Part shown: positions 3,622 to 57,170 of the stretch, one piece after another
Layout of the letters: each line of letters begins with the position of its first letter
How positions within the stretch are numbered: position 1 is the first letter of the stretch
Assembly (NCBI GenBank): GCA_025766275.1
Contig: JAFKAC010000037.1
Location: forward strand, 62,001-126,000
Reading direction: 5' to 3'
DNA from: Lactarius indigo
Taxonomy: Eukaryota > Basidiomycota > Agaricomycetes > Russulales > Russulaceae
DNA length: 64,000 nt
Made by a program: the position numbers and the translations under genes
The notes under the pieces: generated by a model
The model's input: the letters and a program-made list of their open reading frames with translations, nothing else
The model's database searches: none
What the model was told of the DNA's origin: nothing

Positions 3622-5757
3622 ATGTCAACTTCCAATCTCAGTCTAACCCAGGACGAACAAACTCTTCACCACTATGCAGCTATGCTCGAGAAGGAACTAG
3701 AAGCCTATCATGCATGCATACCCAGAGATGAAAAGGTGTGGAGGAAGAAATTCAGAACGCACTTGGTATTCTAGTCTTCCTACAATCCACTTCTATAAGC
3801 TGAGCTGAGGTCTATGCAGAAGACTTCAGTGGACTATTATTTCGGTGCCAATAGAAGAGGCTCTGTACCTCCCCGCATTCACCCACTGTTGTTAAGCCTC
3901 ATGGAAGTGATCAGAGAGGGTGGAACCTCCGTGAAAATAAGTTCAGTCTCAGTGAAGGATCCAAGGATTTTGATGAGCAACTATTATACTTCACCAACGG
4001 ATCTCCCACCACTGAATATACATTTACCAGGCCAAAATGGTGTGGATCCTCTCTCTGACATTCATGTCTGTCGACTGACATCGGCAGCTTCTTGTCAAGA
4101 ATGCATGGACAGTTTGGCGTCAGTAGGCGGCATGATGATAAATATGCCATCGGCAGCTTCCAGTCCAGCTCCTATAGCACCTGAGCATCAAGAAAACTCA
4201 GCAGGTGGAAACATAATGACTACCTCAGCGGCAGCTTCTGGTCTAGAACCTATGGCATCTGAACCTCAAGAGCCCTCGGCAGAGATAGGCAATCCAAGAG
4301 CCCCTATTCCCAGGAGGAAGAAGGATTCGTATGCGTCTGGTAGTGGTGTAACACCGTCACGACGTCAGCTCGACTTGAGCTAGGTTAAGGCGACTCTTGT
4401 GACTTAGCTGATCACGTGCAAAGGCGTATGGCTCGAAGGCGGCTTCTAGATGTACGCAGACACTAGGATCTTGATAAGGCCCTTCCTTGATGAAGGCACG
4501 TCTTTAGAGGAAAGAAAGAGAAAGAGACTAGAAGTGACGATTGAAGAAGACCAAGATGGCGTATCTTGGTCTTCCGCAGCTACCTTAAATACAAAAAGAG
4601 CAGGCTTTCAAGCGCTGCTATGAGTCACCGTAACGTAGCGTCCAACGTGTCGCGTAAGTACCGCAATCCTAATACTACTACTACCTGTACTAGGATCGAG
4701 TCATCCTTCAATGCCTAACTCCTATCGTAAACCCCGAGTCCGTGACTAATATACCTTACAGCCGTAGCCACAACCGGTACAGTAAGGGTCCGATGCGAGA
4801 ATCGTAACAAGTGGTGTTCACAGTGAGTCCTGAATTTTGTCATGCAGATGTGTTGAGGAATAAAATTGCCAAAGAAATTGTTACCAGATCGGCAGCAAAA
4901 AGGAGTGCTGCCGATGATATTGGTGAAGCAGCTATCAGCACTACATACAAGACTAGGAGGCGTGCAGGAGTTAATAATCCGAGTGCAGCTAGGCCAAATA
5001 TCAAAGGTAAGGGTGAACGGGATAAGAGGACAAGCTCAAGAAAGGGCAAGCCTCTACACCCAGAAGAGGACCCTGACAACAACTGGGAGGATGAAGCTCA
5101 ACCTCTCAATAAACCAATGGAGGGAACCAATGAGGAGGCGTCGCCAGGTGCATTAGGTCTAGCTTCCATTGGTTCTATGCTCATCACATTTACCAGCAGC
5201 TAAAGAAATTGTTACCAGATTGGCAGCGAAAAGGAGTGTTGCTGATGATATTGGTGAAGCAGCTATCAGCACTACATACAAGACTAGGAGGCATGCAGGA
5301 AATAATAATCCAAATGCAGCTAGGCCAAATATCAAAGGTAAGGGGAAACAGGATATGAAGACAAGCTCAAGGAAGGGCAAGCCTCTACACCCAGAAGAGG
5401 ACCTTGACAACAACTGGGAGGTCGAAGCTCAACCTCTCAATAAACCAATGGAGGGAACCAATGAGGAGGCATCGCCAGGTGCATTGGGTCTAGTTTCCAT
5501 TGGTTCTATGCTCACCACATCGATCAGCAGCTGAGGGCGAAGATAACAATAATATAGTTAAACAGCTCGAACGGGAGGTCCAGAGTCTAAAGGTCAGATG
5601 TGACTGGCAAGAGAAAACAATTAAGGATCTGAAATCCAGATGCGATAGCCATGAGAAGGTCCTTGAGTCACTTCGGCAGCAAATTGTGGGTCTCCATGAG
5701 AGAGGGAAGAGCCTGAATACTACATATTTTGGGGAGAACTATGATCTCATGCCATAG
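3622..5757 (+). CDS. Hypothetical multi-exon gene with coiled-coil C terminus, interrupted by a solo LTR
   Basis: Unknown protein. The proposed start is ATG 3622 (MSTSNLSLTQDEQ). A 54-nt intron at 3766-3819 joins in phase 0 to exon 2 (KTSVDYYFGANRR...). Exon 2 is followed by a solo LTR (4347-4809) that appears to sit in a short phase-1 intron (donor 4340, acceptor before 4840; 40 nt without the LTR). The next two exons are tandem copies encoding AKEIVTRxAAKRS...NEEASP, each followed by a 52-nt intron (5148-5199, 5479-5530). The last exon, 5531-5757, encodes a strongly helical segment (KQLEREVQSLKVRCD...ESLRQQI) and stops at TAG. The middle is basic and low in complexity, so a nuclear or DNA-associated protein is possible. 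The 40-nt intron is unusually short, so that join is tentative. Confidence 0.45.
4347..4809 (-). mobile_element. Solo LTR, family D (minus orientation)
   Basis: 463 bp bounded by TGTAACACC and ATCGTAACA, with the 5-bp target duplication AGTGG at 4342-4346 and 4810-4814. Read on the minus strand it matches the LTR at 23433-23949 (shared CCCTTACTGTACC and GGTAAGGTATATTAGTC). An inverted repeat at 4546-4574 (GAAGACCAAGA / TCTTGGTCTTC) can form a hairpin. There is no internal domain, so it probably arose by LTR-LTR recombination. Confidence 0.85.
4869..5530 (+). repeat. Tandem duplication of an exon plus its intron (331-bp unit, two copies)
   Basis: Copy 1 runs from about 4869 to 5199 and copy 2 from 5200 to 5530, offset by exactly 331 bases. 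Each contains the AKEIVTR...ASP exon and a complete 52-nt intron (GTGCATT...CAGCAG). The duplicated exon (5200-5478) is 279 nt and phase 1 at both ends, so splicing both copies keeps the frame. The copies differ at scattered positions (for example SAAKRSAADD versus LAAKRSVADD). Confidence 0.8.
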
Positions 5758-5769
5758 CTACACTCCTCA

Positions 5770-8440
5770 TACCAATACAGGCTCATCGGCAGGATGTATG
5801 CATGGGCATTGCAGGTCAATACATGCTTGTCGGAAGAGTACAGATATGAACACTGTGAGCCAACTTCATTGGAAGAAGAAACTGCAGGCCAATACAAGCA
5901 CATCGGCAGGACGCACACATTGGCAGAATGGGCCAGTACAAGCTCATCGGCAGGATACATACCTTGACGCCATGGGCCAATACAAGCTATTCGGCAGAAT
6001 ACACACGCTTCTACCGTGGGTCATTACAAGCTCATCGGCAGCAAGTACACTTCGGCGCCATGGGCCAATATAAGCCATAAACACACAAACGCCATGGGCC
6101 AATACAAGCTCGTCAGCAGAATATGTATATGAGTACAGTGGGCCAATACAAGCTCATCGACAGAATACACACATCGGTGCCATGGGCCAATACAAGCTGT
6201 TCGGCAGAATTCACCTATGGGAAGAATAGGCCAATACGAGCTTGTCAGCAGAATACACACATGAGCACCGTGGGCCAATACAAACCCATCGGCAGCATGT
6301 ACACGTCGGCAGCGTGGGCCAATACAAGCTGTTCGGCAGAATTCACCCATGGGAAGAATGGGCCAATACAAGCTGTTCGGCAGAATACACACATGAGCAC
6401 AGTGGGCCAATACAAGCCCATCGGCAGCATGTACACATTGGCAGTGTGGGCCAATACAAGCTGTTCGGCAGAACTCACCTATGTGCAGAATGGGCCAATA
6501 CAAGCTCATCGGCAGAATACATACATGAGTACAGTGGGCCAATACAAGCTCATCGACAGAATACACACATCGGTGCCATGGGCCAATACAAGCTGTTCGG
6601 CAGAATTCACCTATGGGGAGAATAGGCCAATACGAGCTTGTCAGCAGAATACATACATGAGCACCATGGGCCAATACAAACCCATCGGCAGCATGTACAC
6701 ATCGGCAGCGTGGGCCAATACAAACCCATCGGTAGCATGTACACATTGGCAGTGTGGGCCAATACAAACTGTTTGGCAGAATTCACCCATGGGCAGAATG
6801 GGCCAATACAAGCTGTTCGGCAGAACTCACCTATGTGCAGAATGGGCCAATACAAGCTCATCGGCAGAATACATACATGAGTACAGTGGGCCAATACAAG
6901 CTCATCGACAGAATACACACATCGGTGCCATGGGCCAATACAAGCTGTTCGGCAGAATTCACCTATGGGGAGAATAGGCCAATACGAGCTTGTCAGCAGA
7001 ATACATACATGAGCACCATGGGCCAATACAAACCCATCGGCAGCATGTACACATCGGCAGCGTGGGCCAATACAAACCCATCGGTAGCATGTACACATTG
7101 GCAGTGTGGGCCAATACAAACTGTTTGGCAGAATTCACCCATGGGCAGAATGGGCCAATACAAGCCCATCGGCAGCATGTACACATTGGCAGCGTGGGCC
7201 AATACAAACTGTTCGGCAGAATTCACCCATGGGCAGAATGGGCCAATACAAGCCCATCAGCAGCATGTACACATTGGCAGCGTGGGCCAATACAAGCTGT
7301 TCGGCAGAATTCACCCATGGGGAGAATGGGCCAATACAAGCTCGTCGGCAGAATATGTACATGATTACAACGGGCCAATATAAGTTCATCGACAGAATAC
7401 ACACATCAGCGCCATGGGCCAATACAAGCTGTTCGGCAGAATTCACCTATGGGAAGAATAGGCCAATACAAGCTTGTCAGCAGAATACATACATGAGCAC
7501 CATGGGCCAATACAAACCCATCGGCAGCATGTACACATTGGCAGCGTGGGCCAATACAAGCTGTTCGGCAGAATCCACCTATGTGCAGAATGGGCCAATA
7601 TGAGCTTGTCAGCAGAATACATACATGAGCACCGTGGGCCAATACAAACCCATCGGCAGCATGTACACATCGGCAGCGTGGACCAATACAAGCTGTTCGG
7701 CAGAATTCACCCATGGGAAGAATGGGCCAATACAAGCTCGTCAGCAGAATACATACATGAGTACAGCGGGCCAATACAAGCTCATCAACAGAATACACAC
7801 ATCGGCGCCATGGGCCAATACAAGCTATTCAGCAGAATTCACCCATGGGAAGAATAGGCCAATACGAGCTTGTCAGCAGAATACATACATGAGCACCATG
7901 GGCCAATACAAACCCATTGGCAGCATGTACACATTGGCAGCGTGGGCCAATACAAGCTGTTCGGCAGAATTCACCTATGGGAAGAATGGGCCAATACAAG
8001 CTCGTCGGCAGAATACGTACATGAGTACGGCGGGCCAATACAAGCTCATCGACAGAATACACACATTGGCGCCAGGGGCCAATACAAGCTATTCGGCAGA
8101 ATTCACCCATGGGGAGAATGGGCCAATACGAGCTTGTCAGCAGAAAATACATGAGCACCATGGGCCACTACAAACCCATCAGCAGCATGTACACATCGGC
8201 AGTGTGGGCCAATACAAACCCATCGGTAGCATGTACACATTGGCAGTGTGGGCCAATACAAACTGTTTGGCAGAATTCACCCATGGGCAGAATGGGCCAA
8301 TACAAGCTGTTTGGCAGAATTCACTCATGCAAAGAATGGGCCAATGCAAGCTCATCGGCAGCATGCGCACCTTGGCAGCATGGGCCAATTACAATCTCAT
8401 CGGGACAAATGTCATAGGTGCATTGTGGGCCCATGCAAGC
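5770..8440. repeat. 44-bp satellite array (about 60 units) with an 8-unit higher-order repeat
   Basis: The unit is TGGGCCAATACAAG followed by CNNTCGGCAG and a variable tail, 44 bp in total. Variants alternate in order (tails such as AATTCACCCATGGG, CATGTACACATCGG, AATACATACATGAG). About 6456-6808 and 6808-7160 look identical at an offset of 352 bp (8 x 44), which implies recent amplification in blocks. The array is nearly free of stops in several frames on both strands, so it yields long but spurious open frames. Since 44 is not a multiple of three, no single protein repeat is conserved. Confidence 0.95.
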
Positions 8441-27729: not shown

Positions 27730-30700
27730 ATGGAATCGAATACGCGATCTGTAACTGATATGGACGATCAAGCCCAGTTAGTCGAACAGCTTTCACTTAA
27801 GGATAGGCTGACCGGCTCACGTACAGATATGTTGATTTGAAAGGTATATAGGTCTCACCATTGCTCCTGCATCTCCTGATCAGAATTGATGTTTGCGTAG
27901 AAATATCTGTCGATTTTATCGAGACACGTCCTACATCCGACCTCGAGCTCGTTTTCAAGGACGGTGCCGGTGTCAAATACAAGTCTAACAAATTCAAGAA
28001 CGGAGTCCCTGTTCTTTGGAGACCTGAAATGTCTGTCGTGTTTTCCCTCACCATCGAATACTAATATCTTTCGCACAGCCATGTTAGGACCCACACCAGT
28101 GCAACGTTGACCATCCAGCGAGCCCTTTTCAAGAAAAGGGTTGCTGAGATTTCGGTCAAGTTTAAGTCAGACAAGTTTGGAGACCACAATGTTGTCAGTC
28201 TGGAAGGTGGTGATCTCTCGTTCCTGTTCTAGACCGCTTCATGCTAAGAGGCTTCACAGATAGCAACCGTCGCATTACCGTAACTTTTGCGTACGGGAAA
28301 CCTAAACCCGTGGGTCTTTGGTTGTTCTCTGGTGCCAGCAAGCCGTTGATTTCCTCCTATAGTTGGCAGATGCCACTCGCTTTCTTGGCCCTCGGCTCAC
28401 CTTCTCAAACACCGTCATTCAGCAACACCGTCGTCAAATTCTCGAAGTCCAGTTCCGGATACTTATTATAGGAAGGGCAAATGCGGGGAAGACATCGATT
28501 CTGCAGAGAATATGTGATACTACAGAGAGCCCAGTCATTCATCGAGGAAGTGAGGAGGTATGTGGTCCAAAATTTTCGTCTGTGAACATGATCTCACTTT
28601 CGATCAGGTTAGACTCGACCCGTCCATGGACGTAAGTGATAATAGTATTACCTCTCTTCTTTGCCTTTAAACATGGAGTTAGCGAGGCGAGCACACGATC
28701 GACGACGAACTCGTGTTCTCTAATAATAAGGGCTACGTTTTCCATGACTCTCGCGGTATCGAGTCTGGTAGCGAAGACGAACTCGGGATTTTGCAGGGAT
28801 TTATTCGACGCAAGTGTGGAGAAAGGCGACTGGCAGACAGATTGCATGCGATATGGTTTGGACTCTCGAGTGTTCACGATTACGCCAGCTGACGATCATA
28901 TTTTTTTGAGGTACTGTGTCCCAATGGACAACCAACGACCACAGCTCGATCTGAGGTTTTTCAAGGACATCTGTCCTGACGGGAATGGTGCGTCATCACG
29001 GACGTTCGTGACTGTATTAAAAAAATCGTTTTCAGTGCCTGTCGTTGTCGTGTTTACAAAATATGATCAATTCCTACGAAATGTCCAAATTCATGTGGAG
29101 GATTTCGGAAGCCCAGATGACAACGTGTCTGATGTGGCAGAAGAACAATTCGAAGAGCACTACTTGCGTGCACTTGGTGATGGTGTTAAATTCGTGAGAT
29201 TAGAAAGTGGGTTGAAAGGCAAATAAGGAATTAGTGCTAACGGTTTTGGGTAGAAATGCACAAGCAAAGTATGGGCTGCGATAAGCTTATTGAGACGACA
29301 GCTGCAGCATTGAATGACGACATCGTCGGATTGATGCTTTTGGCGGTGCAAAGGGGAAACTTAGAATTCAGTGTTAAAGCAGCTTTGAAACGGTGAGTGC
29401 GCCAATTGAAGGGGCAAAGTGAGCACCGATGATAACAAGGATTGCAGTGTCCGTTCGCATGATAGCACCAAGGCTGAAGATATAATTCGGAAATGTCTTC
29501 TGCCGTTTCCACGCATCTGGGTACGTATTAATAGTATTAAATTGTGGTAAAGAATTCGTGATCCTTGATGGACCTTAATTAGTGGGTGAGTGTCAGCCCT
29601 TACTCACATTTTCGAGCCTGCTGACGATGGCTGTCCTCGTCTGTCCAGTTTGTGAGTGGCTGTTGTGTGTCGCTGTGTTTCGAGCCTGCTGACCATGGCT
29701 GTCCTCGTCTGCCCAGAATGTGAGTGGCTGCTGTATGATGCTGTGTTTCGAGCCTGCTGACGATGGCTGTCCTTGTCTGTCCAGTATGTGAGTGGCTGCT
29801 GTGGGTCGTTGTGTTTCGAGCCTGCTGACGAAGGCTGTCCTCGTCTGTCCAGAGAGTGAGTGGCTGCTGTGCGTCGCTGTATTTCGAGTCTGCTGACCAT
29901 GGCTGTCCTCGTCTGTCCAGGATGTGAGTGGCTGCTGTGTGTCGCTGTGTTTCGAGTCTGTTGACGATGGCTGTCCTCGTCTGTCCAGAGAGTGAGTGGC
30001 TATTGTGTGTCGTTGTGTTTCGAGCCTGCTGACGACGGCTCTCCTCGTCTGTCCAGTTGGTGAGTGGCTGCTGTGTGTCGCTGTGTTTCGAGTCTGCTGA
30101 CCATGGCTGCCCTCGTCTGTCCAGGATGTGAGTGGCTGCTGTGTGTCACTGTGTGTCAAGCTTGCTGACGACGGCTGTCCTCGTCTGTCCAGAATGTGAG
30201 TGGCTGCTGTGGCTCGCTGTGTTTCGAGCCTGCTGACGATAGCTGTCCTCGTCTGTCCAGAGAGTGAGTGGCTGCTGTGTGTCGCTGTGCGTCAAGTATG
30301 CTTACAACGGCTGTCCTCATCTGTCCAGGATGTGAGTGGCTGCTGTGGCTCGCTGTGTTTCGAGTCTGCTGACCATAGCTGTCCTCGTCTGTCCAGAGAG
30401 TGAGTGGCTGCTGTGTGTCGCTGTGTTTCGAGTCTGCTGACGATGGTTGTCCTCGTCTGTCCAGAATGTGAGTGGCTGCTGTGTGTCGCTGTGCGTCAAG
30501 TATGCTGACAACGGCTGTCCTCATCTGTACAGTTGGTGAGTGGCTGCTGTGTGTCGCTGTGTTTCGAGTCTGCTGACCATGGCTGTCCTCGTCTGTCCAG
30601 TTTGTGAGTGGCTGCTGTGGCTCGCTGTGTTTCGAGTCTGCTGACGATGGCTGTCCTCGTCTGTCCAGAATGTGAGTGGCTGCTGTGTGTCGCTGTGCAT

Positions 30701-33658
30701 TGAGTATGCTGACAGCGGCTGTCCTCGTCTGTCCAGGATGTGAGTGGCTGCTGTGTGTCGCTGTGTTTCGAGCCTGCTGACCATGGCTGTCCTTGTCTGC
30801 CCAGTTGGTGAGTGGCTGCTATGTGTCACTGTGCATCGAGTCTTCTGACGACGGCTGTAATCGTCTATCCAGGATGTGAGTGGCTGTTGTGGCTCGCTGT
30901 GTTTCGAGCCTGCTGACCATGGCTGTCCTCGTCTGTCCAGGTTGTGAGTGGCTGCTGTGTGTCGCTGTGTTTCGAGTCTGCTGACGACGGCTGTCCTCGT
31001 CTGTCCAGAGAGTGAGTGGCTGCTGTGTGTCGCTGTGCGTCGAGTATGCTGACAATGGCTGTCCTCGTCTGTCCAGGTTGTGAGTGGCTGCTGTGTGTCG
31101 CCGTGTTTCGAGCCTGCTGACCATGGTTGTCCTCGTCTGTCCAGTATGTGAGTGGCTGCTGTGGCTCGCTGTGTTTCGAGTCTGCTGACCATGGCTGTCC
31201 TCGTCTGTCCAGAATGTGAGTGGCTGCTATGTGTCACTGTGCGTCGAGTATGCTGACGACGGCTGTCCTCGTCTGTCCAGTTTGTGAGTGGCTGCTATGT
31301 GTCACTGTGCGTCGAGTATGCTGATGACGGCTATCCTCGTCTGTCTAGTTGGTGAGTGGCTGTTGTGGGTCGTTGTGTTTCGAGCCTGCTGACCATGGCT
31401 ATCCTCGTCTGTCCAGTTGGTAAGTGGCTGCTGTGTGTCGCTGTGTTTCAAGTCTGCTGATCATGGCTGTCCTCGTCTGTCCAGGATGTGAGTGGCTGTT
31501 GTGGCTCGCTGTGTTTCGAGCCTGCTGACCATGGCTGACCTCGTCTGTCTAGGTTGTGAGTGGCTGCTGTGTGTCGCTGTGTTTCAAGTCTGCTGACCAT
31601 GGCTGTCCTCGTCTGCCCAGAATGTGAGTGGCTGCTGTGTGATGCTGTGTTTCGAGCCTGCTGACGACGGCTGTCCTCGTCTGTCCAGTTGGTGAGTGGC
31701 TGCTGTGTGTCGCTGTGTTTCGAGTCTGCTGACGATGGCTGTCCTCGTCTGTCCAGGATGTGAGTGGCTGCTGTGTGTTGCTGTCTTTCAAGCCTGCTGA
31801 CCATGGCTGTCCTTGTCTGTCCAGAATGTGAGTGGCTGCTGTGTGTCGCTGTGTTTCGAGTCTGCTGACCATGACTGTCCTCGTCTGTCCAGCATGTGAG
31901 TGGCTGCTGTGTGTCGCTGTATTTCAAGTCTGCTGACCATGGCTGTCCTCATCTGTCCAGAATGTGAGTGGCTGCTATGTGTCGCTGTGTTTCGAGCCTG
32001 CTGACGACGGCTGTCCTCGTCTGTCCAGTTGGTGAGTGGCTGCTGTGTGTCGCTGTGTTTCGAGTCTGCTGACCATGGCTGTCCTCGTCTGTCCAGTTTG
32101 TGAGTGGCTGCTGTGTGTCGCTGTGTTTCGAGTCTGCTGACCATGGCTGTCCTCGTCTGTCCAGGATGTGAGTGGCTGCTGTGTGTCGCTGTGTTTCAAG
32201 TCTGCTGACCATGACTGTCCTCGTCTGTCCAGAATGTGAGTGGCTGCTGTGGGTCGTTGTGTTTCGAGCCTGCTGACGACGGCTGTCCTCGTCTGTCCAG
32301 GATGTGAGTGGCTGCTGTGTGTCGCGGTGTTTTGAGTCTGCTGACCATGGCTGTCCTCGTCTGTCCAGTTGGTAAGTGGCTGCTGTGTGTCGCTGTGTTT
32401 CGAGTCTGCTGACCATGGCTGTCCTTGTCTGTCCAGAATGTGAGTGGCTGCTGTGTGTCGCTGTGTTTCAAGTCTGCTGACCATGACTGTCCTCGTCTGT
32501 CCAGAATGTGAGTGGCTGCTGTGGGTCGTTGTGTTTCGAGCCTGCTGACGACGGCTGTAATCGTCTATCCAGGATGTGAGTGGCTGCTGTGTGTCGCTGT
32601 GTTTCAAGTCTGCTGACCATGACTGTCCTCGTCTGTCCAGAATGTGAGTGGCAGCTGTGGGTCGTTGTGTTTCGAGCCTGCTGATGATGGTTGTCCTCGT
32701 CTGTCCAGGATGTGAGTGGCTGCTGTGTGTCGCTGTGTTTCAAGTCTGCTGACCATGGCTGTCCTCGTCTGTCCAGGATGTGAGTGGCTGCTGTGGGTCG
32801 TTGTGTTTCGAGCCTGCTGACGACGGCTGTCCTTGTCTGTCCAGTTCGTGAGTGGCTGCTATGTGTTGCTGTGTTTCAAGCCTGCTGACGATGGCTGTCC
32901 TCGTCTGTCCAGAATGTGAGTGGCTGTTGTGTATCGCTGTGTTTCGAGTCTGCTGACCATGGCTGTCCTCGTCTGTCCAGGGAGTGAGTGGCTGTTGTGA
33001 GTCGTTGTGTTTTGAGTCTGCTGACGATAGCTGTCCTCGTCTGTCCAGTTTGTGAGTGACTGCTGTGTGTCGCTGTGCGTCGAGTATGCTGACAACGGCT
33101 GTCCTCATCTGTCCAGGATGTGAGTGGCTGCTGTGTGTCGCTGTGTTTCAAGCCTGCTGATGACGGCTGTCCTCGTCTGTCCAGGATGTGAGTGGCCGCT
33201 GTGGCTCGATTTGTTTCGAGCCTGCTGACCATGGCTGTCCTCGGCTCTCCAGTTTGTGAGTAGCCGTCATATGTTGCTGTGTATTGCACCTGCTGACGAC
33301 TCTCGCCCTCGGATCCTCAGGATGTGAGTTTCTGTTGGCGTTTCTGCATCTTTTGCGTGTTGATCATCCCTGTCTTTGACTCCACCATTGATCGTACTCG
33401 TCCCTGATCAATTAGCTCGTGCGTGCATGCTCCCCATTCCAGCCTTCTAATTGTATTCACCTTTAGTTCTCCAGTTTGTATGTGCTCTTTGTATGCTCCC
33501 TCAACCAAACAATCTCACTTGTTCGTCAGGTAGTGCAGATGATGTCACTTCCTGCCCTTCAAAATGTGTTCTCTTTCTATGACACTCATCTACCCCTAGC
33601 TTATGATTTTTATCTTTTTAGCTTACTGTTACCGGTGTTGCCGTCGATTATCATTTGA
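27730..33658 (+). CDS. P-loop GTPase gene 1, containing a tandem micro-exon array
   Basis: Start ATG 27730 (MESNTRSVTDMDDQ). Two beta-rich upstream exons (SVDFIETRPTSDLELVFKD from 27901; TLTIQRALFKKRVAEISVKF from about 28110) are C2-like at best. G-domain exons: 28363-28557 (Walker A GRANAGKTS), 28608-28631, 28683-28855 (HDSRG, the DxxG motif), 28911-28987, 29036-29206 (TKYD, the G4 motif), 29254-29392, 29448-29520 ending FPRIW. Introns are 47-55 nt. Then comes a 62-nt intron, TGG at 29583, about 55 tandem intron-plus-triplet units, TTT at 33475, and the last exon 33530-33658 (VVQMMSLPALQNVF... hydrophobic end LLPVLPSIII, possible membrane segment). The exon near 28200-28300 has a frameshift relative to gene 2, so the N terminus may be broken. 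Probably a TRAFAC-type GTPase; substrate role unknown. Confidence 0.7.
29583..33323 (+). repeat. Tandem array 1: about 55 intron-like 68-bp units, each ending in a 3-nt potential exon
   Basis: Each unit reads GTGAGTGGCTGCTGTG...CTGAC (branch-like)...TGTCCTCGTCTGTCCAG, then three bases, then the next GTGAGT. By hand count the triplets from 29583 to 33323 are 15 GAT, 13 AAT, 8 TTG, 6 TTT, 5 AGA, 3 GTT, 2 TAT and one each of TGG, CAT, TTC, GGA: 56 sense codons and no stop. The intron-like part is almost uniform while the triplet varies from unit to unit. All units keep GT and AG. The branch-like CTGAC lies about 23 bases before the AG, a normal fungal distance. Confidence 0.9.
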
Positions 33659-34371
33659 TCCTTGGTATTTCACGTTATTATCTGTAGTGCCTATTTAACC
33701 TTTTGACAAAGCGGTTATCCTCATCTTGAAGCATGCGACTTTCCTATCTCTCTCAAACGAGTCACCTGAATCAGTTTTAATCCGTGCGAACGCTGAATAT
33801 TGCAAGGCAAATATTGACCTAAAGATTCGACAACACCTTACTGCACCTTCTCAAGAGCATTCCGACGAGTCATTTGCAGCCTTTATTATGGCCACTGATT
33901 TGGTTTGTTCGTTCTTATATTTGTTAAGATAAGACCCAGTCAAACCTTTGGTACAGTCTCAGTCTTCGGTCGAAACCACACTTACGTAGATGAGATCATT
34001 GGTCTTCATACTGGGGTCGGAGGAACACCGCAAGGAAAGGTAAATAGATGTATGCCAGTGTATTATCAAATGGTCCACGCATCATGTACTAGTAGTTGGG
34101 CCATGTATGATGTGTACGATGAAACTCGATATCCCAGACTGTGTTTTTCCCCATTCATTTGTCCGCTCGCCATTTAACCTGTCCCCCCCTCTACAGCTTC
34201 TGCCATCACTAGTCCATGTGACTATTGTGGGTGCACAGGTCTAGGCGGTCAAAGAGGTTGGTGCAAGCACAGAACACACCGTGGTGGTGGGGGGGTCGGA
34301 AAGCCCCTAAAAGACAAAACCTGACTGGATATCAATTTTTCCCATCCCGCTCCCCCCTTGGCAACAAGCGC
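33659..34371 (+). other. Downstream segment shared by both GTPase loci
   Basis: An open block at about 33715-33900 encodes AVILILKHATFLSLSNESPESV...QEHSDESFAAFIMATDL. Its counterpart at 57226-57410 has the same residues at most positions, so it is probably an additional exon or a second small gene. I found no splice that joins it cleanly to the preceding exon. The rest to 34371 shows only weak similarity to the other copy. Confidence 0.4.
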
Positions 34372-34500
34372 TTCAACGAATTCCAAAGATCCAGTTCCAA
34401 GTCCTTATTATAGGAAGGGGAAACGCAGGAATGGGATCAATCCCACAAAGAATGTGTGATACGACGGAGAGCCATTATCTACTGGGGGATTCAGGTACGT
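34372..34500 (+). pseudogene. Isolated P-loop exon relic of a third GTPase copy
   Basis: It encodes KIQFQVLIIGRGNAGMGS then PQRMCDTTES, matching the Walker A exon of the two GTPase genes. The GKT of the P-loop is changed to GMG, so nucleotide binding would be lost. No neighbouring G-domain exons follow. Confidence 0.7.
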
Positions 34501-50612: not shown

Positions 50613-53600
50613 ATGGAATTGAATCCAAGATCTGCAACCGATATAGACGATCAACCTCAGTTAGTTTGAACAACTTCCTCTCGCCGAGCATAGACTGACC
50701 GATTCACGAACAGAGTTATTCGTTTGAAAAGTATATAGAACCTACAATTGCTTCTGAGAAGAATTGATATAGTTGCGTAGAAATATCTGTCGATTTTATT
50801 AGGACACGTCCCACATCCACCGATCTCGAGCTTGTTTTCAAGGACGACGCCGGTGTCACATACAAGTCTTACAAATTCAAGAACGGCGACCTTGTTCGTT
50901 GGCACCCCAACATGTTCGTGTCATTAGCCGTGTTTTTTCCCTCACCGTCGAGTGCTAATTTATTCCGCGTAGCTATGTTAAGACCCACACAAAAGCTACG
51001 TTGACCATCCAGCGGGCGCTGTTCAAAATAAGGGTCGCTGAAGTTTCCGTCGAGTTTAAGCCATATAAGTTTGGAGACGACAAGGTTATCCGTCTGGAAG
51101 GTGGTGGTGCCTTTCCTCCCAGTACAATCCGCTTCTTACTGAGTGGCTTCACAGATAGCGACCATCGCGTTGCCGTGACTTTTGTTTACACGAAATCCAA
51201 ATCGGTGTGTCTTTGATTGTTCTCTGGTGCCAGAAAGCCGTTGAATTCCTCCTATAGTTGGCAAACGTCACTCGCGATCTTGACCCTCGAGCCACCTTCC
51301 CAAACACCGTTGCGCCAATGGACACACAGCAACCCGGTCGTCGAATTCCAGAAATCAAGTTCCGCGTGCTTATTATAGGAAGAGCAAACGCAGGAAAGAC
51401 GTCAATTTTGCAGAGAATCTGCGAAACCACAGAGAGCCCCGTCATTTACCGGGGAATGAAGGAAGTACGTAGTCCAACCGTTTTGTCCGCGAACCTGATT
51501 TCACTGCCGACCAGGTTAGACTCGACCCGTCCATGGATGTAAGTGATGGTAGTATTTTCTTCGGTTGTCTTGAACATGAAACCAGCGAGGCGAGCACGGA
51601 ATCGACGATGAACTCATGTTCTCTAATCATAAGGGCTACGTTTTCCACGACTCACGTGGAATTGAGTCAGGTGGCGCTGAGGAACTCACGATTCTGCAAG
51701 AGTTCATTCGACGCAAGTGTGGAGAAAGGCGACTGGCAGACAGATTGCATGCGATATGGTTTGGACTGTCAAGTATTCACAATGATGACAACTAACAGTC
51801 ATGGTTTTTGAGGTACTGCGTCCCAATGGACAACCAACGGCCACAGCTCGATCTCAAATTTTTCAAGAATATCTGTCCTGACGGAAACGGTGTGTCATTA
51901 CGGATGTTCGTGACTGTATTAACCAGATAATTTTCAGTCCCTATCGTTGCGGTATTTACAAAATATGATCAATTCCTACGAAATGTCCAAATCTATGTGG
52001 AGGATTTCGGAGGCCCAGGTGACAATGTATCTGATGTGGCAGAGAAACAATTTGAAGAGCACTACTTGCGTGCACTGGATGATGGTGTTAGATTCGTGCG
52101 ATTAGAAAGTGAGTGGAGGGCCAGATACCTGAGTTACGTGCTAATACTTTTGGGGCAGAAATGCACAAGCAAAATATGGGCTGCGATAAGCTTATTGAGA
52201 CGACAGCTGCAGCTTTAAATGACGACATCGTCGGATTAATGCTTTTGGCCGTGCAGAACGGTAATTTAGCATTAAGTGTTAAAGAAGCTTTGAGGCGGTG
52301 AGTGTGTCAATGGGAGTGCAATGTGAGCGACAATGACGATGAAAATCCCAGTATCGATTCCCATAGTGACGTGGGGGTCAAAGAAATAGTTCGGGAGTGT
52401 CTCATCCCGTTTCCACACATCTGGGTGAGTATCGATAAGGCGGTACAGTAGATTATGGTACAGGATTGATAATCTTTGATACCGCCTGACTACTAGTGGG
52501 TGAGTGGCTGCCATGGCTCATTGTGTTTCAAATCTGCTGACGATGGCTATCCTCGGCTATCCAGGAAGTGAGTGGCTGCTGTGACTTTCTGGTTCGAGCC
52601 TGCTGACAACAGCTTTCCTCGGCTCTCCAGAGAGTGAGTGGCTGCCGTGACTCTCTGTGTTTCGAGCCTGCTGACACCGGCTCTCCTCGGCTCTCCAGGA
52701 AGTGAGTGGCCGCCGTGGCTCTCTAAGTTTCGAGCCTGCTGACGACGGCTATCCTTGTCTCTCCAGGAAGTGAGTGGCTTCCATGGCTCTCTGTTTTTCA
52801 AGCCTGCTGACGACGACTCTCCTCGGCACTCCAGAGAGTGAGTGGCTGCCGTGACTCACTGTGTTTTGGACCTGCTAATGACGGCTGTCCTCGGCTTCCA
52901 GCTCGTGAGTGGCTACCATGGTTCTCTGTGTTTCGAGCCTGCTGACGATGGCTGTCCTCGGCTCTCCAGGAAGTGAGTGGCCGCTGTGGCTCTCTGTGTT
53001 TTGACCCTGCTGACAACGGCTGTCCTCGGCTCTCCAGGAAGTGAGTGGCTGCCGTGGCTCTCTGTGCTTCGAGCCTGCTGACGATGGCTGTCTCGGCTCT
53101 CCAGTGGGTGAGTGGCTGCTGTGACTCTCTGTGTTTCGAGTCTGCTGGCGACAGCTGTCTGGGCTCTCCAGGGAGTGAGTGGCCACCATGGCTCTCTGTG
53201 TTTCGAGCCTGCTGACCACAGCTTTCCTCGGCTCTCCAGGCAGTGAGTGGCCGCCGTAGCTCTCTGTGTTTCAAGCCTGCTGACAACAGCTGTCTCGGCT
53301 CTCCAGGCAGTGAGTGGCTGCCGTGGCTCTCTGTGTTTCGAGCCTGCTGACGACGGCTCTCCTTGGCTCTTCAGGAAGTGAGTGGCTGCCGTAGCTCTCT
53401 GTGTTTCGAGCCTGCTGACCACAGCTGTCTCGGCACTCCAGAGAGTGAGTGGCTGCCGTAGCTCTCTGTGTTTCGAGCTTGTTGATGACAGCCGTCCATG
53501 TCTCTACAGGAAGTGAGTGGCTGCCATGGCTCTCTGTGTTTCAAGCCTGCTGACGACGGCCATCCTCGGCCCTCCAGTTCGTGAGTGGTTGCCGTGGCTC

Positions 53601-56600
53601 TCTGTACTTCGAGCCTGCTGACGATGGCTGTCCTTTGCTCTGTAGAGAGTGAGTGGCTGCGGTTGCTCTGTGTTTCGGGCCTGCTGATGACGGCTCACCT
53701 CGGCTCTTCAGATAGTGAGTGGCTCCTGTACCTCTCTGTGTTTCGAGACTGCTGATGATGGCTGTCCTCGGCTTTCCAGAGAGTGAGTGGCTGCTGTACC
53801 TCTCTGTGTTTCGAGCTTGCTGACGATGGCTGTCCTCGGCTCTCCAGAGAGTGAGTGGCTACCGCGGCTCTCTGTATTTGAGGCCTGCTCACGACAGTTG
53901 TCCTTGGCTCTCCAGTGGGTGAGTGGCTTCCGTGGCTCTCTGTATTTCAAGCCTGCTGACGACGGCTGTCCTCGGCTCTCCAGAGAGTGAGTGGCTACCA
54001 TGGTTCTCTGTGTTTCGAGCCTGCTGATGTCTGCTGTCCTCGACTCTCCAGCAAGTGAGTGGCTGCCATGGCTCTCTGTATTTCAAGCCTGCTGACGACA
54101 ACTCTCATCGGCACTCCAGTGGGTGAGTGGCTGCCGTGGCTCTCTGTGTTTCAAGCCTGCTGACAACGGCTGTCCTTGGCTCTCCAGAGAGTGAGTGGCT
54201 GCCGTGACTCTCTGTGTTTCGAGCCTGCTGACGACGGTTGTCCTCGGCTTTCCAGCTCGTGAGTTGCTACCATGGTTCTCTGTGTTTCGAGCCTGCTGAC
54301 GATGGCTGTCCTCGGCTCTCCAGTTAGTGAGTGGCTGCCATGACTCTCTGTGTTTCGAGCCTGCTGATGACGGCTTTCCTCGGCTCTCCAGGGTGTGAGT
54401 GGCTACCGTTCCTCTCTGTGTTTCAAGCCTGCTGACGATGGCTGTCTTCGGCTCTCCAGTTCGTGAGTGGCTGCCGTGACTCTCTGTGTATTGAGCCTGA
54501 TAATGATGGCTGTCCTCGGCTCTCCAGTTCGTGAGTGGCTACCATGGTTCTCTGTGTTTCAAGCCCGCTGATGACGGCTGTCCTCGTCTCTCCAGTTCGT
54601 GAGTGGCCGCTGTGACTCTCTGCGTTTCGAGCCTGCTGACACCGGCTCTCCTCGGCTTTCCAGCAAGTGAGTGGCTGCCGTGGCTCTCTGTGTTTCAAGC
54701 CTGCTGATGACCGCTGTCCTCGGCTTTCCAGAGAGTGAGTGGCTGCCATGGCTCTCTGTGTTTCGAGCCTGCTGATGACGGCTGTCCCCTGTTCTCCAGG
54801 ATGTGAGTGGCCGCCGTGGCTTTCTGTATCTCAAGCCTGCTGACGACGGCTCTCCTCGGAACTCCAGTTCGTGAGTGGCTACCATGGTTCTCTGTGTTTC
54901 TAGCTTGCTGATGACGGCTTTCCTCGGCTCTCCAGGAAGTGAGTGTCTGCTGTGGCTCTCTGTGTTTCGAGCCTGCTGACGATGACTGTCCTCGGCTCTC
55001 CAGAGAGTGGGTGGCTGCCGTAGCTCTCTGTATATCGAGCCTGTTGACGACGGCTGTCTCGGCTCTCCAGTTCGTGAGTGGCTGTTGTGGCTCTCTGAGT
55101 TTCGAGCCTGCTGACGATGGCTGTCCTTGGCTCTCCAGTTAGTGAGTGGCTGCCATGGCTCTCTGCGTTTCAAGCCTGCTTACCATGGCTGTCCTTGGCT
55201 CTCCAGGGAGTGAGTGGCTGCCGTGACTCTCTATGTTTCCAGCCTGCTGACGAGGGCTCTCCTCTGCTCTCCAGGCAGTGAGTGGCTGCCGTTCCTCTTT
55301 ATGTTTCGAGCCTGCTGACGATGGCTATCCTTGGCTCTCCAGGCAGTGAGTGGCTGCCATGACTCTTTGTGCTTCAAGCCTGCTGATGACGGCTTTCCTC
55401 GTCTCTCCAGAGAGTGAGTCGCTGCTGTGACTCTCTGTTTCGAGCCTGCTGACGACGGCTTTCTTTGGCTCTCCAGGAAGTGAGTGGCTGCCGTGGCTCT
55501 CTTTATTTCGAGCCTGCTGATGACGGCTGTCTTTCGCTCTCCAGGGAGTGAGGGGCTGCAGTTTCTCTCTGTGTTTCGGGCCTGCTGACGACAGCCATCC
55601 TCGGCTTTCCAGTTTGTGAGTGGCTGCCATGGCTCTCTGTGTATTGAGCCTGATAATGATGGCTGTCCTCGGCTCTCCAGGAAGTCAGTTGCTACCATGG
55701 TTCTCTGTGTTTTGACCCTGCTCACGACGGCTGTCCTTGGCTCTCCAGGAAGTTAGTGGCTGCTGTGACTCTATGTGTTTCGAGCCTGCTGACGACGGCC
55801 GTCCTTGGCTCTCCAGGGAGTCAGTGGCTGCCGTAGCTCTCTGTGTTTCAAGCTTGCTGATAACGGCTGTCTTTGGCTCTCCAGGGAGTCAGTGGCTACC
55901 ATGGTTCTCTGTGTTTCGAGCCTGCTGACGACGACTGTCCTTGGCTCTCCAGGAAGTGAGTCGCCGCCGTGACTCTCTGTGTTTCGAGCCTGCTGATGAT
56001 GGCTTTCCTCGTCTCTCCAGTTCGTGAGTGGCTGCTGTGGCTCTCTGTGTTCAGAGCATGCTGACAACGGCTTTACTCGGCTCTCCAGGATGTGAGCAGC
56101 TGCCATAGCTCTCTCTGTTTCGAGCCTGCTGACCACAAATGTCCTTGGCTCTCCAGGAAGTGAGTGGCTACCATGGTTCTCTGTGTTTCGAGCCTGCTGA
56201 CGATGGCTATCCTTGGCACTCCAGTTCGTGAGTGGCCACCATGGCTCTCTGTGTTTCGAGCCTGCTGATGACGGCTGTCCTCGGCTTTCCAGAGAGTGAG
56301 TGGCTGCCATGGCTCTCTGTGTCTCGAGCCTGCTGATTACGGCTGTCCCCTGTTCTCCAGGATGTGAGTGGCCACCGTGGCTTTCTGTGTCTCGAGCCTG
56401 CTGACGACGGCTCTCCTCGGAACTCCAGGATGTGAGTGGCTACCATGGTTCTCTGTGTTTCTAGCTTGCTGATGACGGCTTTCCTCGGCTCTCCAGGAAG
56501 TGAGTGGCTGCTGTGGCTCTCTGTGTTTCGAGCCTGCTGACAACGGCTTTCCTCGGCTCTCCAGTTAGTCAGTGGCTGCCGTAGCTCTCTGTGTTTCGAG

Positions 56601-57170
56601 CCTGCTGATGATGGCTTTCCTTGGCCCTCCAGGGAGTGAGTGGCTGCCGTAACTCTCTGTTTAGAGCCTTCTGACAATGGCTGTCCTTGACTCTCCAGTT
56701 AGTGAGTGGCTGCCGTGGCTCTCTGTGTTTCTAGCCTGCTGACGACAGCTGTCCTCGGCTCCTCAGGTTGTGAGTGACTGCCATGTGTCGCTGTGGTTTG
56801 AGCCTGCTGATGACTCTTCCCCCGGATCTTCAGGATGTGAGTTGCCATATGCCTTTCCGTGCTTTTTTATCTGTCGATTATACCTGTCTTTGACTATTCA
56901 TCTATCTCACTCATCCCTGATTAACTAGCACGTGCGTGCATGCTCCCCTTCCTAGCTTGCTCATGGTGTTTACCTCTATTTCTCCAGTTTGTAAGTGCTT
57001 TCTGTATATTCACCGAACCACACATCTCATTTGTCCTTCAGACAGTGCAGATTATGTCACTGCCCACCATTCGAAATGTGTTCTTTTCATACTACATTCA
57101 TCTATCCCTGGCTTATGATGTTTATCTCTCTAGCTTACTGTCACCGGTCTCGGCACCGGTTATCATTTGA
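50613..57170 (+). CDS. P-loop GTPase gene 2, containing a tandem micro-exon array
   Basis: Paralogue of gene 1 with the same intron positions. ATG 50613 (MELNPRSATDIDDQ), but TGA at 50667 where gene 1 stays open, so the first exon may be broken. Upstream exons: SVDFIRTRPTSTDLELVFKD (from 50781) and TLTIQRALFKIRVAEVSVEF (about 51000-51210, intact unlike gene 1). G-domain exons: 51258-51464 (GRANAGKTS), 51515-51538, 51586-51758 (HDSRG), 51813-51889, 51938-52108 (TKYD), 52159-52297, 52352-52424 (ending FPHIW). A 72-nt intron leads to TGG 52497, then 64 intron-plus-triplet units, TTT 56988-56990, and the last exon 57042-57170 (TVQIMSLPTIRNVF..., 129 nt as in gene 1). All visible G-domain motifs are intact. 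Confidence 0.7.
52497..56836 (+). repeat. Tandem array 2: about 64 intron-like units, each ending in a 3-nt potential exon
   Basis: Unit: GTGAGTGGCTGCCGTGG...CTGAC...TGTCCTCGGCTCTCCAG plus three bases; mean spacing about 67.8 bp. Triplets by hand count: 14 GAA, 12 AGA, 8 TTC, 6 GGA, 5 GAT, 4 each TGG, GCA and TTA, 2 each CTC and CAA, one each ATA, GGT, TTT, GTT: 65 sense codons, no stop. Donor positions 3-6 vary (GTCAGT, GTTAGT, GTGGGT, GTGAGC) but GT and AG are never lost. Codons differ strongly from array 1 although the intron part is clearly related. Confidence 0.9.

Follow-up and report, generated by a model that had tools for sequence, protein, structure and literature searches.

The MEGs of Schistosoma mansoni carry 10–20 exons per gene and introns of 0.1–5 kb and encode secreted products, the exon lengths being given as 6–81 bp in the text of the source and as 3–81 bp in its abstract, with most exons at 15 bp (PMC10526429). 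In the bicycle genes of aphids the internal exons are almost all in phase 2, and megacycle contains >100 micro-exons encoding about 2000 residues (PMC9168663). Even smaller exons can be used by the spliceosome, fungi included, as exemplified by the 1-nt exon of Fusarium CYP621A (PMC12940212), by the 1-nt exon of Arabidopsis APC11 and by the 3-nt micro-exons of Drosophila and plants (PMC4674806, PMC8042270, PMC8831610). Moreover, introners and introns arising by tandem duplication show that near-identical introns can multiply (PMC4974935, PMC8469720). These statements, and the comparisons built on them, refer to excerpts of the cited sources.

The window analysed here, a stretch of 64,000 nt from the basidiomycete Lactarius indigo, contains two arrays of 3-nt candidate exons, each following the exons of a G-domain gene. 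We read such an array, with a probability of about 0.85, as a row of real one-codon exons that are predicted to be spliced and to encode, with each exon supplying a single amino acid, the linker that joins the G domain to a C-terminal hydrophobic helix. As in the MEGs, many very short consecutive exons, mostly multiples of three, make annotation difficult; however, in L. indigo all array exons are 3 nt long, 16–81 of them follow each other, the tandemly repeated introns measure about 65 nt and the product is a G-domain protein, so that exons and introns alike lie outside the ranges given in the text for MEGs (exons of 6–81 bp, mostly 15; introns of 0.1–5 kb). The bicycle genes and megacycle resemble the arrays in having many single-phase micro-exons in fast-evolving genes, whereas the roughly 2000 residues of megacycle imply far longer exons, a tandem DNA repeat is not described in the excerpt, and the phase differs: the row of array exons opens in phase 0 behind the motif FPRIW, and stop codons are avoided in that phase alone. 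The ultra-small exons named above demonstrate that 1–3 nt are usable, but they are isolated and do not occur by the dozen. Introner families consist of near-identical introns scattered over many unrelated genes; the near-identity is shared, while rows of neighbouring one-codon exons are not described for them in the excerpts.

The initial annotation knew of no described gene like this, and in the full texts searched, which exclude most subscription journals and bioRxiv, we likewise found no report of one-codon exons arranged in rows. A term search of the articles on the Lactarius-Pinus transcriptome (PMC8417538) and the L. hatsudake genome (PMC9713418) returned no relevant passage on GTPases or exons. 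As far as our searches show, the arrangement is new, although its parts, 3-nt exons, GT-AG introns and minisatellites, are each known. If the main reading is true, this gene type is, as far as searched, the first to give each residue of a protein stretch an exon of its own over tens of consecutive exons.

Architecture of the arrays and of the gene family

The first junction search of the window revealed 57 YAG-NNN-donor junctions between 29580 and 33472, spaced by 68 nt in 54 of 56 steps and by 66 and 154 nt in the other two, with no stop codon among the 57 triplets. The 154-nt step contains a further candidate exon, CTC, bounded by a TAG acceptor and a GTGCGT donor, which brings array 1 to 58 triplets; the claim of the initial annotation that all triplets are sense codons thus held, and its count of 57 had to be raised. 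An equivalent of CTC was found in 15 other arrays, where its donor is GTGCGT, GTGTGT, GTACGT or otherwise variant. Apart from a few, the predicted introns of array 1 are 65 nt long; their acceptors are CAG (n = 54) or TAG (n = 4), and GTGAGT serves as donor in 54 of 58 cases. Phenylalanine, the residue encoded by the final triplet TTT, is also the last linker residue in several intron-free homologues. The annotated protein P0001, marked 'partial', terminates at FPRIW. The features are listed in Table 1.

Table 1. Coordinates within the window of the two candidate exon arrays and the adjoining gene parts.
Feature	Position	Strand	Basis or remark
Exons of the G-domain gene 5' of array 1	27730..29520	+	P0001 mapped by tblastn
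Last exon before array 1, ends FPRIW	29448-29520	+	Part of annotated protein P0001
Predicted 62-nt intron between FPRIW and first one-codon exon	29521..29582	+	Sequence GTACGT...TTAG
Array 1, 58 candidate 3-nt exons, first TGG, last TTT	29583..33477	+	Junction search
CTC, one-codon candidate exon overlooked in earlier count	33416-33418	+	Acceptor TAG, donor GTGCGT
TTT, final 3-nt exon of array 1	33475..33477	+	Junction search
Exon VVQMMSLPALQN, 36 nt, phase 0, first ordinary exon past array 1	33530..33565	+	Alignment with intron-free homologues
Predicted 56-nt intron GTGTTC...TTTTTAG	33566..33621	+	Alignment with intron-free homologues; previously taken as coding
Exon LTVTGVAVDYHLIL, 43 nt	33622..33664	+	Alignment with intron-free homologues
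Predicted 47-nt intron, AAG acceptor	33665..33711	+	Alignment; acceptor type unusual, hence less certain
Exon with hydrophobic helix AVILILKHATFL and conserved tail, 3' end approximate	33712..33902	+	Alignment
Paralogous G-domain gene 5' of array 2, start approximate	50614..52424	+	tblastn of P0001; sequence
Array 2, 67 candidate 3-nt exons	52497..56990	+	Junction search

Downstream of array 1, the 129-nt terminal exon proposed initially had to be abandoned. Alignment with the intron-free homologues and with the exons of P0084 and P0124 places introns inside it, giving a 36-nt exon, an intron, a 43-nt exon, a second intron and an exon starting at 33712; with this structure, the TGA that closed the 129-nt reading does not serve as the stop codon. 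A conserved hydrophobic reading had also been considered as proof that the terminal exon is coding, and this was dropped, since length differences among the paralogues within the 56-nt intron are not divisible by three and thereby break the frame. At 34362-34472, 0.5 kb past the gene of array 1, lies a decayed G-domain gene fragment of the P-loop region, which shares 62% identity with P0001 across 37 residues.

Array 2 has six variant donors of the GTCAGT or GTTAGT type or other types. Units with GTGAGG, GTCAGT or GTTAGT instead of GTGAGT cluster at 55550-55950, and exon skipping might be expected within this patch.

The central observation of the initial annotation, 3-nt candidate exons between intron signals, was confirmed and exceeds chance: in the genome (90.3 Mb) a pattern of two linked units gave 1426 matches, whereas the reversed control pattern gave 0. 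Searching with 187 residues translated from joined G-domain exons yielded at least 191 exon matches, corresponding by eye to about 50 gene places, some of which are probably allelic copies. Twenty stretches and the C1 locus were read; they hold 22 family genes, 17 of which carry an array of 16 to 81 triplets (757 in all), and all 17 arrays are entered from the conserved FPxIW exon of the family. The remaining five genes lack a run of six or more units, which counts against the reading as one-codon exons. L030 has eight additional YAG-NNN-donor units, which form another short run at 5720-6253, 2.7 kb past the main array of that gene.

Aligned with P0128, P0124 and P0084, the linker lies between FPYIW, at which the G-domain part has its helical end, and the short exon VVQMMSLPALQN; beyond this exon come the hydrophobic helix YHLILAVILILKHATFL and a tail that is conserved. 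On the best reading the array codons are translated into a charged linker that connects the G domain with the C-terminal hydrophobic helix. The P-loop GRANAGKTS is visible in the sequence. The Pfam profile MMR_HSR1, which represents TRAFAC-type GTPases, scores 23.0 bits for P0084 (curated cut-off 21.9) and 20.9 bits, below the cut-off, for P0001, and it does not match P0128, P0124, P0134 or P0150. AlphaFold modelled P0128 with low overall confidence (mean pLDDT 66, under 50 at residues 300-311), placing a helix at 360-378; searched with this low-confidence model, Foldseek returned dynamin-like and G-alpha folds at low TM-scores.

Splice signals and stop codons

GT donor, branch motif and AG acceptor flank the array exons as in GT-AG spliceosomal introns. 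Donors start with GT in 756 of 757 cases and with GC in one, in a search that required AG and a donor beginning with G, and the branch motif CTGAC/T has its A mostly 24 nt before the intron end; C1 has CTGAC in 39 of its 78 introns, and L024 in 49 of 56. In every one of the 17 arrays diversity rises from the splice signals over the intron body to the triplet, and neither triplets nor signals drift with the rest of the unit, as those of a non-coding minisatellite would. In the diverged array of C1 the introns of 55–73 nt, 51 of 78 off the modal length, have a mean identity of 0.68, and the donor, the AG and the 3-nt spacing are nevertheless maintained; its donor positions 1–6 hold 1.25–2.00 bits compared with 0.13 at position 7. 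Across the arrays 185 of 722 introns deviate from the modal length of their own array, and the same rate would give 8.5 exon changes; this contrast favours fixed 3-nt exons but is only suggestive, the junction finder having itself required 3-nt exons. Inspected by eye, nearly all long gaps between units contain a 3-nt site, the exceptions being L026, which has lost an acceptor, C1, where an intron of 88 nt is fused, and L035, which has an intron of 82 nt. The lost or altered sites, comprising the acceptor of L026, the fused intron of C1 and five GTCAGT/GTTAGT donors in L025, count against the one-codon-exon reading. In L023, L026, L029, L037 and L041, an AAG or GAG acceptor replaces CAG in several units, often before AGA.

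One indication that the triplets are coding is the absence of TAA, TAG and TGA from all 757, for which column shuffling within arrays (2000 runs, minimum 57) leads to an expectation of 80.7; 60 of the 757 triplets derive from a relaxed-site search that required 3-nt spacing. When the two arrays that nearly duplicate that of L023 are left out, there are 0 stops in 676 triplets versus 67.1 expected. Because neighbouring units are related, fewer triplets are independent than the shuffles assume, and for the 238 distinct triplets per array 18.5 stops are still expected. Read as joined triplets, phases 0, 1 and 2 contain 0, 32 and 116 stops, respectively (740 codons each in phases 1 and 2). Among the 3-mers of a unit the triplet shows the highest diversity (44 kinds, 4.14 bits), and it is never a stop in 537 units. 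Stops do occur at other variable offsets (22 at offset 47, 83 at offset 17), although some have none. Stop avoidance judged from array 1 alone (0 versus only 2.8 expected, P 0.03) or from the 51 pooled distinct triplet types (2.1 expected, P 0.08) was set aside as weak, unlike that in array 2 (8.1 expected) or C1 (5.2 expected) taken alone.

The linker in intron-free homologues

Among the homology matches listed, 33 proteins of 'jgi' records stem from short contigs of 914–3017 bp. Their frames run unbroken across the sites of the L. indigo introns, and as the ORFs cross several such sites, the contigs are probably RNA-derived. The FPxIW flank is found in 22 of these 33 homologues, 14 of which also have the 3' conserved exons, and all 14 contain a linker when counted by eye, with lengths of 25–58 residues (11 by script, 3 by eye); examples are LVSDDSDLDHSDLDLHSSFNLLSSNSNFDNDSDSDWF in P0132 and FFGEDLGGLLESGSGLSEDEDDGDSGEESSGSLEHL in P0124. 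These lengths lie inside the range of array sizes (16–81), which fits inclusion of most exons, and L. indigo itself presumably splices and translates the array codons with most exons included. In amino acid composition the linkers correlate with the L. indigo triplets at r 0.63 and the remainder of the same proteins at 0.30, which speaks for the one-codon-exon reading. Against it, the linkers correlate nearly as highly with the remainder of their own proteins (r 0.55), the linker of P0133 reaches only r 0.05 with the triplets, and serine occurs in homologue linkers where L. indigo has arginine.

Further homologues leave the linker early. P0056, P0181 and P0064 have 4, 7 and 11 residues after FPxIW, followed by VIGC/VSGC..., the translated 5' end of an array intron, so that they look like transcripts continuing into a retained array intron. 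A single ordinary linker exon would predict one start of such read-through, and three are seen. P0035 enters the first intron directly after FPxIW with 0 linker residues. The ends of P0077, P0176 and P0207 are uninformative, P0077 and P0207 being hard to read, and P0186 loses the frame after about 47 linker residues; P0077, P0207 and P0186 count against the one-codon-exon reading.

Gene models of named species also count against it, as they truncate or skip the array: P0001 ends before it, and the L. tabidus model P0084 joins FPYIW to TEQVVSLPAIQ without a linker. In P0117 (L. pseudohatsudake), P0091 (L. hatsudake) and P0083 (L. tabidus) the models hold translated array introns, VSGCRGSLRFEPADDACPRLS, which indicates misannotated arrays in other Lactarius species. 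If the main reading is true, public annotation truncates or misreads genes of this family, P0001 stopping at the array and several models entering it. A homologue outside Lactarius, P0150 of Galerina marginata, has a 27-residue stretch, TVKAHTSFFKIFVDSVCSSFFRNLWVT by eye, at the linker position.

Competing explanations and change of the arrays

The initial annotation left open whether the triplets are micro-exons or recursive splice sites. Stop avoidance in phase 0 only, the kept splice signals and the homologue linkers speak for micro-exons. Recursive sites, also called ratchet sites, join acceptor and donor directly and keep nothing. That one long intron is removed stepwise in this manner, without retention of the triplets, is hardly credible: an acceptor does lie near a donor in every unit, but exactly three bases separate them in every called unit, and these bases are constrained to sense codons in one phase. 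Only slightly less improbable is a non-coding minisatellite in one long intron, removed whole from the FPRIW donor to the VVQMMSLP acceptor, with the inner sites as leftovers of an amplified intron. The array is indeed a tandem repeat, the frame would stay intact if all triplets were skipped, and P0084 lacks the linker, yet the 757 triplets free of stops in phase 0 only, the splice signals maintained in diverged arrays and the linker of all 14 short-contig homologues with both flanks stand against this explanation. An unlikely alternative, though more plausible than these two, holds that the exons are real but mainly regulatory, incomplete splicing leading to intron-retaining, truncated or decayed transcripts while the linker sequence is of minor importance; the four of 22 FPxIW homologues that enter intron-like sequence (P0035, P0056, P0064 and P0181, after 0, 4, 11 and 7 residues) agree with it, whereas stop avoidance over whole arrays and the 14 complete linkers do not.

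A fourth alternative concerns the origin of the arrays and has the same coding outcome: near-identical introns would have entered an ordinary exon codon by codon, similar to introners and without unit duplication. We regard this as possible but rather improbable. Introns are alike inside arrays, up to 0.93 in L038, while the triplets are near saturation (pi 0.57–0.72), most strikingly in L038 with an intron pi of 0.07 and an exon pi of 0.68; simple duplication of codon plus intron would leave both alike. In the majority of 16 arrays intron similarity does not track the neighbouring triplet, and it tracks distance in C1 alone; no long repeated codon blocks were found in the arrays, and equal adjacent triplets show no excess (72 of 616 versus 74.6 by chance), a figure on which an origin with target-site duplications was rejected. 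On the other hand, insertion would have been required at each codon boundary and nowhere else, a codon block separates L038 and L015 as unit recombination would give, and intron similarity is linked to the 5' triplet in L030 (z 3.1) and L041 (3.0), the two arrays with z of at least 3, and in L039 (2.4) and L036 (2.0). Either selection keeps codons different amid intron homogenisation, or introns spread into a ready-made row of codons.

For the one-codon exons themselves, a mechanism to which we give even odds is that of a frame-proof codon cassette, in which recombination within the introns, 95% of the length, would add, delete and reshuffle single codons and generate linker diversity in a large family of putative membrane-linked GTPases, the introns being homogenised by concerted evolution and the codons kept different by selection. 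The repeat unit would be one codon plus one intron; recombination between near-identical introns could insert, delete or exchange codons and would always preserve the frame, allowing fast linker divergence. If true, the linker can evolve codon by codon with no frame-shift risk. In principle only, any skipped subset of exons would also retain the frame, and the number of isoforms would be enormous. The question raised is how the spliceosome can use the sites on either side of three bases about 60 times per transcript without skipping, and the arrays would, if the reading holds, offer a natural system for studying intron definition where exon signals are absent altogether.

The loci L014 and L015, 97.9% identical over 3333 bases, have LRD and DRFDDELFL in common around a swapped block, LDREER versus DDEFF. 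The first 17 codons of three other near-identical loci, L018, L019 and L020 (99% identity), are the same, which indicates that array change is not constant. Between recent duplicates, exons and introns differ by 1.7% and 6.2% in one pair, and by 4.9% versus 4.3% and 6.7% versus 5.3% in two others; this mixed exon conservation counts against the one-codon-exon reading. Besides the arrays, the window contains another large tandem repeat at 5887-8403, with a 44-bp unit in 57.5 copies and 73% matches, and a 331-bp unit in two copies with 92% matches at 4871-5532.
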